Of a stretch of 64,000 bases of DNA, positions 57,571-62,715 are shown one piece after another. The position numbers were made by a program, and so were the translations under genes. The notes beneath the pieces were generated by a model. The model saw nothing but the letters and a program-made list of their open reading frames with translations. It was not told where the DNA came from and did no database searches. Source of the stretch: Carnobacterium sp. 17-4 (GTDB taxonomy: Bacteria; Bacillota; Bacilli; Lactobacillales; Carnobacteriaceae); assembly GCF_000195575.1 (NCBI RefSeq), contig NC_015391.1, forward strand, positions 674,501 through 738,500. Direction: 5' to 3'. The number at the start of each line of letters is the position of its first letter. The stretch's first letter is position 1.

Positions 57571-57640
57571 CTGATATTAAAGGAACGTATGTGCCCTTCA
57601 TAAGCTGAAGGCTATAAAAAGAAAGAAGAGAGTGGATACA

Positions 57641-58885
57641 ATGGTCAAATTTATTCATGCAGCTGATCTGCATTTGGACAGCCCTTTTATTGGCTTGAAA
57701 ATGTTACCTGATTTTATTTGGAATGCTATTTATTTATCTACTTTTTCAGCTTTGACTACAATCGTGGATAGTGCGATACAAGAAAAGGTGGATTTTATCT
57801 GCTTAGTTGGAGATATTTATGATAATGATGAGCGCAGTGTGAAAGCTCAAGCATATTTACGAAATGAAATGGAAAGATTGAATAAAGCCGAAATACCAGT
57901 CTATCTATTGCATGGAAATCATGATTACATAGAAAATACTGGGTTACACTTAGAAATGCCTGGAAATGTCGTTGTATTTACAGAATCAGTGGAGACAAAA
58001 TGGTATACGACAACGGAAAAGGATGAGGTCGCCATTAGTGGTTTTAGTTACGATAAAAGATGGGTCCTTGAACGGAAAATTAAGGAGTATCCAGAAAAAC
58101 ACCCACGTGCAAAGTATCATATTGGACTGTTACATGGCTTCTCTGAAGGCCTAGATTCAGAACACGGGAACTACGCCCCATTCTCATTAGGAGAGTTGAG
58201 AAGCAAGAGATACGACTACTGGGCTTTAGGTCATATTCATAAGAGACAGCAGTTAGCTGAAAATCCACCTGTCATCTATCCTGGAAATACTCAAGGTAGA
58301 AGCAGCAAGGAAAGTGGAGAAAAAGGTTTTGAATTAGTAACATTGACTGAATCTGGAGTGTCAATGGAATTTAGACCGACTTCAACGATTCAATGGAAGA
58401 CAATTGACCTTTCAATTAAAGAAATCAAGAGTTTAGATGAGCTTTACAAAGTCTTGAAGACTGTTGTCGAAGAACAAAAAAATGATTTCTATAGTCTATT
58501 CCTTTCCATTCATTTAGTGGATAGTGAGAATTTGCTTGAAGGAGTCCTAAAAAAAATCAAGCAAGGTGAATTAATAGAAGCTTTACAACAAATTCCAAAA
58601 ACCGATACTTTCGTTTGGGTCCACAAAATAGAATTGCAGACAGTAGTTGAAAATCGGATACCAGCTATCCAAAAGATTTTTCCAAATGAATGGGAACAAA
58701 TTCAAAAAGAAATTGAAAAAGAAAGTTTATTTAATGAAATAACGAATGCACTTTTTGATTTCCCCGGAATGGAAGAAGTTGTAGAAACACGTGAAGGAAA
58801 TTACCGAAAAAAAATTGTAAAAGATGCTAAAGAGTTGGTTCGTAATCAACTTGGATTTGAAAGAAGTGATGACCTTGAAGATTAA
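57641..58885 (+). CDS. yhaO: Mre11/SbcD-like metallophosphoesterase YhaO
   Basis: A 414-residue calcineurin-like nuclease-family protein. Motifs: HAADLHLDSPF, CLVGDIYDNDE, HGNHDYIE, LLHG and ALGHIHKRQ, the two-metal site of Mre11/SbcD. The C-terminal region (about 280-410) is helical and probably binds the partner ATPase. Start ATG 57641 (MVKFIHAADLH). It overlaps yhaN by 17 bases, so the pair is translationally coupled. Direct functional data are sparse. Confidence 0.9.
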   Translation: MVKFIHAADLHLDSPFIGLKMLPDFIWNAIYLSTFSALTTIVDSAIQEKVDFICLVGDIYDNDERSVKAQAYLRNEMERLNKAEIPVYLLHGNHDYIENTGLHLEMPGNVVVFTESVETKWYTTTEKDEVAISGFSYDKRWVLERKIKEYPEKHPRAKYHIGLLHGFSEGLDSEHGNYAPFSLGELRSKRYDYWALGHIHKRQQLAENPPVIYPGNTQGRSSKESGEKGFELVTLTESGVSMEFRPTSTIQWKTIDLSIKEIKSLDELYKVLKTVVEEQKNDFYSLFLSIHLVDSENLLEGVLKKIKQGELIEALQQIPKTDTFVWVHKIELQTVVENRIPAIQKIFPNEWEQIQKEIEKESLFNEITNALFDFPGMEEVVETREGNYRKKIVKDAKELVRNQLGFERSDDLED

Positions 58886-61712
58886 ATCAATGGAAATATA
58901 TGGTTATGGAAAATGGGTAGACCACAAAATCGATGATATAACTAACTTGCAAGTGTTTTATGGAGAAAATGAAGCTGGAAAAACAACTTTAATGTCGTTT
59001 ATTCATAGTATTCTTTTTGGATTTCCTTCTAAGATTAGTTCTGAGCTAAGATATGAACCTAAGAGTAGCAGCCAATACGGAGGAAGGCTCTTTTTAACTG
59101 GTACACAATATGGGGATGTTCAAATTGAGCGTGTACGAGGAAAAGCAAACGGCACGGTTACGGTAACTTTTGCTAGTGGAGAAACGGGTGGCGAAGAATG
59201 GCTTGAAAAAATATTATCTGGATTGGATAAGGCAACTTATCAAGCGTTATTTTCTTTTAATCTAGCTGGCCTTCAAAAAGTCCAACAATTAAATCGTGAA
59301 AAATTGAATCGTTATTTTTTAAGTGTAGGAACAATTGGAAACGAACAGCTGTTAAAGGTTGCAGATAAGTTTCAAACGGAAGCAAGTAAGTTGTTTAAGC
59401 CCAATGGACGAGTGACCGTTATTAATAAAAAAATGGCCGATGTTGAAGCAAAAAGGAAACAAGTAAAACTAGCAAAAGAAAAGAATAGTCAGTACATGAA
59501 TTGGTTGCTTGAAAAAGACAATCTTGAAAAAGAGTTGATCAGCCTACGAGAACAAAGGACACATTATGAAGATAAAGTATTCAAGTTAAACCAATTAGAA
59601 TCAAATTGGGTACTTTTTAGTGAGATGCAAGATATTCAACATCAAATAAAAAAAGAACAGCTCGAAGAATTGCCCAAAGATGGATTGTACCAGCTCAATC
59701 ATTACAATCAAGAAATAAATCAACTTAAATTAACTATTACGCAACAGCAAGAAAAATTGCATTATCTTAGAGATAAAACAGAGGAAACAAGGCAACTTAA
59801 AGTGTTTATTGAACATAGAGATGAAATGATCCTATTGATGGACAATCTGGATCATATCCAAGCTAAGTTACAAGAAGCTACTTTTATTAAAGAAACCATT
59901 TTGGCTACACAACATCAATTTTTGCGTGAAAAACAACAATTAGGTCTAGAGGAACAACAAGCTATACCAGCTATTATGACTGAGGAGAGTCGTTTGAAAT
60001 TAAATGATTTACAAGTCAAACAAGCTCAAGTTGAGCAAAGAATAAAACTACTAACAGAACGAATAGCGTTTTTGAACTTCCAGCAAGAATCTTTAGGAGA
60101 TCAACTCGATAAATTAGAAAAAAGACTATGGAATAATCAAACCTATCAAGAAGTAGAAGATCAACTAGAAAAAAATAATCCTGATCCACGTGCGTATAAT
60201 AAAGTAGATAAGCAAAGTGAGCAAAAATTAAGTAAAGGAACACTTACGAACTTAGTAGGCGGGTTATTGATAAGTATTTTAGGCCTATATATGTCTAATG
60301 GAATTGGTTTAGTTCTTACAACTGCTGGTTTAGGGCTCATTTTCCATAGTATTTGGTCAATCGTTAAAAAAACTAAAATACCAAATAAAATAGAAGAGAT
60401 TAGAGAGACTTCGTATTCATTTGAAGAATATATTCAACAAACGGAAATTCGAAAACAATGGAGAGAAAAACTTGCAGAAATTGATCAAGTCATTCTTGAA
60501 TTAAATGAGAAACAGGCTCAATATGAAGAGGCTGAAAATAAACAACTTCAAACTGAAAAAGAATTTCGATCATGGAAACAATTATGTGGTTATCCACTAG
60601 AGTATTCAACAAGCGAATTGATGCAAGAAACGGATATTTTCGAAGCAATAAGAGAAAAAGCGAATAACATTTATGAAAAACAAACACAATTAAGCCAGAT
60701 GGAAAATGAAATAGTTGAGTGGAAAGAATCCATCATGTATTTACAGCCTGTTATTTTTGTTGATTGGAATAATAATGAACAACTAATTGAGGGAATAAAA
60801 CAATTTTTTAAAGAAGCCATAGCTGATGAGGAAAAATTAAAAGATCTTACGAGGCAGCATAAAGTATCCCATCAGCATATTGAGCAGCTCATTATGCAAC
60901 AAAAAGAGTTTGAACAAAAGAGAAGACGTCTTCTTCATGCTGTTAAAGTTAAAACTGAAGAAGAATTCCGGAAAAAATATGTATTAGAGGAAGAATTAAC
61001 AACAAAAAAAGCTCGTTTAAATTTGTTAGAACAGCAAGTTGGTGAGTACAGTGCATTGTTAGAAAAGTATCGTGATAAGGCTGCTTTAGTTGAAAGTATC
61101 CAAGGTTTAAAAGCAAAACTGCAACAATTAAAAGAATCAATTGAAATCAAATTAAATAAAAAAATTAAAACAGAAGTCGCATTGAAAAACTTAGAAGTTG
61201 GTGGAGCTTATTCTGAATTATTGCAAGAATATGCCAATTTAAAGAGTGAAACACAAATTTTAGTTGATGAATGGACAACTTATAAAATAGCCGCAGAACT
61301 TATTGAGCGAACGTTAACTGAAGCTAGGAAAGATCGTTTTCCAGCAACTATACGTGATACGACTTACTTTTTTGCCATTTTGACAAATAGAAATTATCAA
61401 AAAGTCTTCTTAAAAGATCAAACTATAACGGTTCAACGTAAAGATGGCACTTTATTTGAAGCTTCTGAGCTTTCCCAAGCGACAGCTGAACAACTGTACG
61501 TAGCTCTGCGTTTTTCATTCGTAAAAAATGCTAATGACTTAATTCAATTGCCGTTGTTAGTAGATGATGGCTTTGTGAATTTTGATCAGCAAAGAAAAAA
61601 AGAGATGTATCAACTATTACAGAGAATTAGTGAAGACATACAAGTATTTTATTTTACATTTGATGAAACTGTAACAGATGTTTTTCGAAAAGAGCAGATA
61701 GAAATGTTATAA
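58869..61712 (+). CDS. yhaN: Rad50/SbcC-like ATPase YhaN with central membrane hairpin
   Basis: A 947-residue SMC-like AAA_27 ATPase. The N-terminal Walker A is YGENEAGKTTLMSF (about 35). Two long coiled coils (about 170-450 and 520-820) flank two hydrophobic segments at about 457-500 (LVGGLLISILGLYM and GLVLTTAGLGLIFHSIW). There is no CxxC zinc hook. The C-terminal signature (SELSQATAEQLYVALR) and Walker B (LPLLVDDGFVNFD) complete the head. Start ATG 58869 is probable; TTG 58875 and ATG 58890 are alternatives. It pairs with YhaO. Confidence 0.9.
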   Translation: MTLKIKSMEIYGYGKWVDHKIDDITNLQVFYGENEAGKTTLMSFIHSILFGFPSKISSELRYEPKSSSQYGGRLFLTGTQYGDVQIERVRGKANGTVTVTFASGETGGEEWLEKILSGLDKATYQALFSFNLAGLQKVQQLNREKLNRYFLSVGTIGNEQLLKVADKFQTEASKLFKPNGRVTVINKKMADVEAKRKQVKLAKEKNSQYMNWLLEKDNLEKELISLREQRTHYEDKVFKLNQLESNWVLFSEMQDIQHQIKKEQLEELPKDGLYQLNHYNQEINQLKLTITQQQEKLHYLRDKTEETRQLKVFIEHRDEMILLMDNLDHIQAKLQEATFIKETILATQHQFLREKQQLGLEEQQAIPAIMTEESRLKLNDLQVKQAQVEQRIKLLTERIAFLNFQQESLGDQLDKLEKRLWNNQTYQEVEDQLEKNNPDPRAYNKVDKQSEQKLSKGTLTNLVGGLLISILGLYMSNGIGLVLTTAGLGLIFHSIWSIVKKTKIPNKIEEIRETSYSFEEYIQQTEIRKQWREKLAEIDQVILELNEKQAQYEEAENKQLQTEKEFRSWKQLCGYPLEYSTSELMQETDIFEAIREKANNIYEKQTQLSQMENEIVEWKESIMYLQPVIFVDWNNNEQLIEGIKQFFKEAIADEEKLKDLTRQHKVSHQHIEQLIMQQKEFEQKRRRLLHAVKVKTEEEFRKKYVLEEELTTKKARLNLLEQQVGEYSALLEKYRDKAALVESIQGLKAKLQQLKESIEIKLNKKIKTEVALKNLEVGGAYSELLQEYANLKSETQILVDEWTTYKIAAELIERTLTEARKDRFPATIRDTTYFFAILTNRNYQKVFLKDQTITVQRKDGTLFEASELSQATAEQLYVALRFSFVKNANDLIQLPLLVDDGFVNFDQQRKKEMYQLLQRISEDIQVFYFTFDETVTDVFRKEQIEML

Positions 61713-61746
61713 TAAAGTAAAGATGCAAATAGAAAGAGGGAGTCAA

Positions 61747-62715
61747 ATGGAAAAGAAATTATTTGAGTATACGAATGATGAAACCTTCGACATTTATTTA
61801 TTAATCAAATCAGCGGACATTCGAGTTGCTAAAAACGGTAAAAAATTTATTGCTTTTACGTTTCAGGATACAAGTGGTCAAATGGATGGTAAATATTGGG
61901 ATGCATCAGAAGATGATATTGCAGCATTTACTGCTGGGAAAGTAGTAAAAGTTTCAGGAAAAAGAGAACTTTATCAAGGAAATCCTCAAATCAAACTATT
62001 TAAAATTGCAGTGACAAAATCTGGAGATCCAGATAATCCAGATTTATATGTTGAAAGAGCCCCATTAAAGAAAGAAGATATGATGGAAGAAATAAATGAT
62101 ACATTATTTGAGATTACAAATGCGAATATGAATCGGATTGTACGTTATTTATTGAATCATTATCAAAAACCTTTTTTTCAACATCCAGCAGCTAAACGAT
62201 TTCACCATGCTTTTACTGGTGGACTAGCTTACCATACCGTATCTATGTTAAGAATTGCAAAAACAATAGCGACTCAATATGAAGATATCAACAAACCTTT
62301 ACTTTATGCTGGTGTTATCCTACATGATTTGGGCAAAATTATTGAACTGTCAGGACCAATATCTACAGAGTATACTTTAGAAGGAAATCTTTTAGGACAT
62401 ATTGTGATAGTAGATGAAGAAATTACAAAAGCTTGTCTTGCTCTAAAAATTGATGAAAAAAGTGAAGATGTTTTGCTTTTGAAGCATATGGTATTAGCTC
62501 ATCACGGACTACTTGAGTATGGTTCTCCGGTTAGGCCAAAGTTAAGAGAAGCTGAAATTTTATATATGATCGATAATTTAGATGCGACTATAAACATGTT
62601 AAATTCGACATTAAATAGAACAGAGCCAGGGATGTTTACAGAAAGAATTTTTGGATTAGACAATCGGACATTCTACAAACCTAATGAATCAGAAAAAACA
62701 ACTGATAGTAAATAA
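61747..62715 (+). CDS. yhaM: 3'-5' exoribonuclease YhaM
   Basis: A 322-residue nuclease: an N-terminal OB fold (about 15-90; IRVAKNGKKFIAFTFQDTSGQMDGKYWD) and an HD domain with HHAFTGGLAYHT, LHDLGKI and HHGLLEYGSPVRP. Bacillus YhaM trims RNA and single-stranded DNA from the 3' end. ATG 61747 follows GAGGGAG by 5 bases; ATG 61723 is less likely. The yhaO-yhaN-yhaM order and the nearby prsA match Bacillus. Confidence 0.94.
   Translation: MEKKLFEYTNDETFDIYLLIKSADIRVAKNGKKFIAFTFQDTSGQMDGKYWDASEDDIAAFTAGKVVKVSGKRELYQGNPQIKLFKIAVTKSGDPDNPDLYVERAPLKKEDMMEEINDTLFEITNANMNRIVRYLLNHYQKPFFQHPAAKRFHHAFTGGLAYHTVSMLRIAKTIATQYEDINKPLLYAGVILHDLGKIIELSGPISTEYTLEGNLLGHIVIVDEEITKACLALKIDEKSEDVLLLKHMVLAHHGLLEYGSPVRPKLREAEILYMIDNLDATINMLNSTLNRTEPGMFTERIFGLDNRTFYKPNESEKTTDSK

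Follow-up and report, generated by a model that had tools for sequence, protein, structure and literature searches.

Organization of the yhaO-yhaN-yhaM locus

The window analyzed here, which is the whole 64,000-nucleotide stretch, comes from the 2.69 Mb genome of Carnobacterium sp. 17-4 and includes yhaO (57641-58885), yhaN (58869-61712), and yhaM (61723-62715), in this order and all on the plus strand. The 3′ end of yhaO shares 17 bp with yhaN, in agreement with the original prediction of a gene pair coupled by overlap with yhaM located nearby. The features of this region are as follows.

57582-57595, plus strand: LexA-like operator GGAACGTATGTGCC, approximately 45 bp before the yhaO start, with one mismatch to GAAC-N4-GTTC
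57641-58885, plus strand: yhaO, Mre11/SbcD-type nuclease, 414 aa (Metallophos, 7e-13; sbcd TIGR00619, 3e-15, below its curated cut-off)
58869-61712, plus strand: yhaN, Rad50/SbcC-like ABC ATPase, 947 aa (AAA_27 PF13514, 2e-21; profile search against Rad50 3qf7_A, 5e-15)
58869-59408, plus strand: N-terminal ATPase lobe of YhaN with Walker A (invariant residues; PF13514 over aa 4-207)
59418-60173, plus strand: first long helical arm, aa 184-435, interpreted as a coiled coil (AlphaFold helices)
60177-60233, plus strand: linker 1, aa 437-455 (pLDDT under 50)
60234-60290, plus strand: hydrophobic helix 1, aa 456-474 (AlphaFold helix, overlapping the charge-free run of aa 457-499)
60300-60368, plus strand: hydrophobic helix 2, aa 478-500 (AlphaFold helix; best 19-mer aa 481-499, scoring -8.75 with octanol-scale values)
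60372-60410, plus strand: linker 2, aa 502-514 (pLDDT under 50)
60420-61382, plus strand: second long helical arm, aa 518-838, which continues into the C-terminal lobe (AlphaFold helices)
61311-61709, plus strand: C-terminal ATPase lobe of YhaN with S869, D899, and D900 (invariant columns; Rad50 matches at about profile positions 815-952)
61723-62715, plus strand: yhaM, 3′-5′ exoribonuclease and downstream neighbor of yhaN (NF010007, 2e-122; 408 bits, below the curated cut-off of 460 bits)

The open frame of yhaN spans 58824-61712, and the ATG at 58869 was adopted as the start because homologue alignments begin at query residues 1-3. Of the named YhaN proteins at the loci found, that of Carnobacterium jeotgali was the nearest (80% identity). 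YhaM had a BLAST match in 76 of 107 surveyed YhaN loci (that in L075 being weak), and yhaM is thus a frequent but non-obligatory neighbor of yhaN.

The PF13514 score of YhaN was 76.9 bits, above the curated cut-off of 22, and TIGR00618 (sbcc) was not found among its NCBIfam matches with E values up to 1. G32, N34, E35, G37, K38, and T40 were invariant in an alignment of 72 sequences. In the C-terminal lobe, which resembles Rad50 crystal sequences in the profile search, S869 and D899/D900 presumably represent the signature and Walker B, respectively. YhaN therefore has Rad50-type ABC ATPase lobes separated by long arms. An AlphaFold model of a single chain, built with 72 sequences, had a mean pLDDT of 83.1 and a pTM of 0.46. 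Foldseek with this model listed Smc5/6, condensin, MRN, MukBEF, Wadjet, and Lamassu, all with low TM scores, so only the general family was read from the structure search.

YhaO is predicted to be a nuclease with an Mre11 fold. Its AlphaFold model (pLDDT 89.6) best matched 5dny_A, an Mre11/Rad50-DNA complex (Z score 27.0, 305 aligned residues, rmsd 4.9), and E. coli SbcD (4m0v_A) gave a Z score of 24.9. H6, D9, H11, and D95 were invariant and D58, N93, H94, H165, H198, and H200 nearly invariant; we take these conserved His, Asp, and Asn residues to be the metal-binding site. In all 187 loci compared, yhaO adjoins yhaN on the same strand, lying within 50 nt in 183 and overlapping in 125 when starts were picked by a script, and the two genes were also neighbors in 20/20 phylum loci (see below). 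The predicted fold and this adjacency support the proposed Mre11-Rad50-like pairing of YhaN with YhaO.

Hydrophobic hairpin of YhaN

The original prediction placed two hydrophobic segments between the coiled coils of YhaN, at 60238-60370. We found this pair at aa 457-499 (60237-60365 of the window), where 43 consecutive residues contain no D, E, K, or R; in 5000 composition shuffles of YhaN, the longest charge-free run was 38 residues and the mean was 17. The AlphaFold model resolves the stretch into two helices (456-474 and 478-500) joined by a 3-residue turn, with pLDDT values of 77-87 over blocks 461-500. On either side, stretches with pLDDT below 50 (437-455 and 502-514) lead into the long helices. 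The hydrophobic pair at the coiled-coil apex is thus confirmed. YhaN contains a single cysteine, C573, and no CxxC motif, as had been claimed, and in this respect lacks the apex CxxC of zinc-hook Rad50 and SbcC.

The 19-residue Kyte-Doolittle (KD) peak of YhaN was 1.81, at the low end of the family (median 2.34, see below), and 737 of 2000 shuffles reached 1.6 somewhere in the chain. Hydropathy alone was rejected as proof because the peak is not significant by itself; the case for the hairpin is built instead on the stretch without charged residues and on the homologues. For comparison, two other products encoded in the window that we read as membrane proteins, one CNNM-like and one PBP1-like, had peaks of 2.82 and 2.63, respectively.

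Conservation of the hairpin among YhaN homologues

Three sets of homologues were compared. The first comprised 107 loci: six from the genus, one class match, and 100 regions picked from order and class matches, about one or two for each genus or family code, the choice preceding any inspection of hairpins. YhaN matches were obtained in 126 of 148 genomes in the order search and 112 of 200 in the class search; one genus (code g8, family code f3) accounted for 17 of the 20 listed YhaN-less genomes of the order search, and none of its genomes was among the matches. The second set, chosen after the first survey, consisted of 20 phylum loci among the highest-ranking entries of a long list, picked on PF13514 score and frame length with their middles then unread; it covers the stronger PF13514 matches, the weaker ones including many other ATPases. 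The third set, consisting of named loci, took the best 80 from 399 relatives that had been retrieved via ATPase motifs. Two broken frames (L167 and L198) were dropped before counting, leaving 205 proteins.

A central hydrophobic segment, defined as a central 19-residue window with KD ≥ 1.6, was present in 202 of the 205 homologues (106/107, 18/20, and 78/78 in the three sets), with a median KD of 2.34, which makes chance untenable as an explanation; a general absence of the pair from homologues, which the original prediction had named as a refuting result, was not seen. The sets include near-copies, and after clustering the segment was found in 195/198 (90% identity), 180/183 (70%), and 163/166 (50%) clusters. 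A comparable segment outside the center occurred in only 10/205 YhaN proteins, and any such segment in 11/187 YhaO proteins. Two separate segments, each with 17 residues at KD ≥ 1.2, were detected in 199 homologues; the remaining six comprised L086, L106, and L205, in which one segment is strong and the other weaker, as well as three soluble proteins. Chain lengths on the two sides of the hairpin are correlated (0.92), indicating that the hairpin marks the point at which the chain folds back. According to the named loci, carriers belong to many genera of Bacillota, and single bins with the hairpin are labeled Deltaproteobacteria, Latescibacterota, Verrucomicrobia, Planctomycetota, and Acidobacteria. 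The longest named YhaN proteins, L174 (Deltaproteobacterial, 1317 aa) and L189 (unclassified, 1320 aa), have the segment near their middle.

The letters of the hairpin are poorly conserved and show no consensus residues, while hydrophobicity persists. L, I, A, V, G, and F together make up approximately 82% of the segments and D, E, K, and R approximately 0.7%, although selecting the segments by hydropathy favors this membrane-like make-up. GxxxG helix-packing motifs were not enriched in the hairpins (67 versus 72.1 expected) and were rejected as support for helix-helix dimerization. In the 15-residue flanks of the 199 hairpins, K+R amounted to 0.23 and 0.21 per residue and D+E to 0.10 and 0.11. 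The loop is 1-8 residues long in 173/199 hairpins and uncharged in 105/199; its charges per residue (D+E, 0.078; K+R, 0.063) are at least as much acidic as basic. Under the positive-inside rule, the positive flanks and short loop fit a hairpin whose two ends lie in the cytoplasm. Sequence and model together thus predict that the YhaN hairpin is inserted in the membrane.

Comparison with SbcC

SbcC-SbcD has the same general design as YhaN-YhaO, namely, an ABC ATPase whose lobes are separated by two long helical arms and a nuclease partner with an Mre11 fold. The same genome encodes SbcC as a separate gene (L108), with CPVC at residue 530 of 1039; it is the only TIGR00618 match of the genome and is itself below the curated cut-off. 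Among 29 SbcC loci of the order, from which a weak 376-aa match (L245) had been removed, a central CxxC was found in 26 and a central hydrophobic segment in none (median KD 0.62). The three SbcC proteins without CxxC are explained by their loci, which cover just 700-771 residues of frames that are 1044-1152 residues long, and their apparent middles are therefore displaced. In YhaN, by contrast, the segment is nearly universal, and only 1 of 207 frames examined had a CxxC in its middle fifth. This single case, CECC at 0.54 of the length of L208, was judged to be chance and rejected as an apex hook; six further homologues (L059, L098, L120, L122, L138, and L154) have an off-center CxxC. The hydrophobic apex therefore sets YhaN apart from SbcC, and the hairpin as a family-wide difference between the two is well supported.

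YhaN proteins lacking the hairpin

A central hydrophobic segment is missing from the three soluble proteins mentioned above (L102, L109, and L110; 1173-1187 aa) and likewise from four plasmid-borne YhaN proteins of Pseudomonadota, L209-L212 (1146-1192 aa). In a tree with 70 rows, built from the ATPase lobes by a quick method with SH-aLRT support only and left unrooted, these seven form one side of a branch with an SH-aLRT of 99. The hairpin trait changes once on this tree, compared with 6.8 times in shuffles (0/500 as low), and never among the 63 hairpin rows. This single change indicates that the hairpin consistently characterizes one branch, the larger one, rather than arising and vanishing repeatedly. 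The long soluble proteins (1146-1192 aa), which occur in Pseudomonadota and a few Bacillota and are annotated "YhaN family protein," share the same head families and have a neighbor that is yhaO-like or annotated "DNA repair exonuclease," but they differ in length, in having no central hydrophobic segment, and in their separate branch. One genome (G387) encodes both a soluble (L109) and a hairpin (L114) YhaN, each with its own YhaO.

In two of the five plasmid-borne soluble-YhaN loci fetched, L209 (3004-8397) and L210 (3013-8679), the YhaO-YhaN pair lies directly upstream of a strong match to GajA (Gabija) and an annotated helicase gene; brxL is near one of these pairs and MmeI near the other. 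The soluble kind may thus travel in defense islands. A defense-system reading of the pair in the window was rejected, as PADLOC gave no match for YhaN and a weak one (3e-05) for YhaO.

LexA-like operator upstream of yhaO

We take GAAC-N4-GTTC to be the LexA consensus. In 115 of 185 loci, the 160 bp preceding yhaO contain this motif with at most one mismatch, and 70 loci lack it; random stretches drawn from these loci gave an expectation of 9.4. Two loci with short upstream DNA were excluded. A search with a LexA 14-mer allowing up to two mismatches gave no match before yhaO; the site was detected when the less stringent core motif was searched across homologues. Variants of the site recur in groups of loci, for example, AGAACGTGCATTCG and CGAACAAATTTTCG. 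The genome has a lexA gene, with CGAACGTTTGTTTG upstream. In the excerpts available of a study of Bacillus pumilus (PMC3896406), yhaO, yhaN, and yhaM are tabled under LexA/SOS with values of 8.76, 8.73, and 2.81, and transcription of the yhaONM cluster is described as increased after H2O2. Since the yhaO-yhaN operon appears to be SOS-induced, the pair would act on damaged or incoming DNA.

Discussion

We consider YhaN-YhaO to be an SOS-induced Mre11-Rad50-like nuclease with a predicted membrane anchor at the coiled-coil apex of YhaN, with a probability of roughly 0.75. The analysis establishes the layout of the sequence, its conservation, the separate branches of the tree, the predicted folds, and the conserved operator; how the hairpin sits in the membrane, how the dimer is built, how long the arms are, and on which substrate and where the complex acts are inferred. 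Rad50-type proteins have been seen as free complexes joined by a zinc hook or a hinge at the coil tip. In YhaN, a two-helix hairpin would replace the zinc hook and tie YhaN-YhaO to the cytoplasmic membrane. The hairpin would enter from the cytoplasmic side, with its ends inside near the positive linkers and its turn at the outer face, and the arms (approximately 250 paired residues, at most approximately 37 nm) would point inward, so that the ATPase lobes, together with the YhaO nuclease, would face membrane-near DNA. Two YhaN chains may meet through ATP head engagement and their common membrane instead of a zinc hook; the heads, engaging with ATP, and the active site of YhaO would function as in Mre11-Rad50, and fixation of the apex would keep the nuclease near the cell boundary.

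The chief rival is a soluble dimerization tip, in which two YhaN apices bury their greasy helices in a four-helix bundle and fulfill a zinc-hook or SMC-hinge role in the cytoplasm. The hairpin does occupy the zinc-hook position, the single-chain AlphaFold run does not discriminate between the two arrangements, and the nucleoid foci reported for SbcE (see below) would suit such a tip. However, the residue make-up of the segments is membrane-like, allowing for the selection bias noted above, and their letters drift while hydrophobicity is kept, although particular residues should be conserved in a specific soluble interface; the positive flanks and short loop also obey the positive-inside rule. 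We regard this alternative as unlikely. A still less probable reading is that the hairpin is in the membrane mainly to dock another membrane protein, such as the DNA-uptake machinery, with anchoring of the nuclease being secondary. This would agree with the interaction network in excerpts of PMC4205851, in which SbcE is connected with the transmembrane kinase YabT and SpoIIE, and with the polar location of the uptake machinery, RecA, and RecN in competent B. subtilis (excerpts of PMC2727465), but the hairpin has no consensus residues pointing to one partner and is retained across genera and phyla. The poor conservation of its letters might also suggest a functionless neutral remnant or spacer; the persistence of hydrophobicity in 163/166 clusters at 50% identity and the single trait change on the tree, with none in the 63 hairpin rows, make this highly improbable.

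The yhaN of the window is an orthologue of B. subtilis YhaN/SbcE because it has the same family and neighbors, and we are aware of no known difference between the two proteins. SMC, MukB, and the Wadjet and Lamassu ATPases share the general coiled-coil ABC ATPase fold, but their partners and apex structures differ from those of YhaN. A 2010 paper on SbcE refers to double-strand-break repair and competence in its title and reportedly mentions a "unique central domain" in its abstract; foci on nucleoids in some growing cells and a polar signal in competent cells are also said to be described there. The polar signal fits a membrane anchor. The nucleoid foci fit less well and count against the anchor, because a plain membrane protein would not show such foci, though arms of tens of nanometers could reach the DNA. 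Further points against the anchor are the low hydrophobicity of the YhaN of the window, the weaker second segment of L086, L106, and L205, the loop charges, which are at least as much acidic as basic, and the lack of GxxxG enrichment.

The window shares with B. subtilis YhaN/SbcE and YhaO the same set of neighboring genes, and the SOS listing is the one tabled for B. pumilus yhaONM in the excerpts of PMC3896406. The portions available of PMC4205851 describe SbcE as an SMC-like protein of double-strand-break repair that is networked with YabT. The 2010 title, taken with the polar uptake machinery with RecA and RecN in excerpts of PMC2727465, suggests a link of YhaN to competence. The statement in the original prediction that the role of the pair is poorly described was therefore too strong, as SbcE of B. 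subtilis has been tied to double-strand-break repair and competence. In a search of open-license PMC literature, which did not include the 2010 SbcE paper, a membrane-bound YhaN or Rad50-like protein was not found. YhaN itself is already known, and the addition made here is the predicted membrane reading of its central part.

A broader and more doubtful idea is that a whole old branch of Mre11-Rad50, spanning several phyla, has the bilayer in the position of the zinc hook, with arms that dimerize through the membrane and watch boundary DNA during uptake, at membrane-near breaks, and perhaps when foreign DNA arrives. If the membrane hairpin is real, one branch of Rad50 proteins would do its DNA-end work at the membrane, and the hairpin may be the reason for the reported link of YhaN/SbcE to competence.
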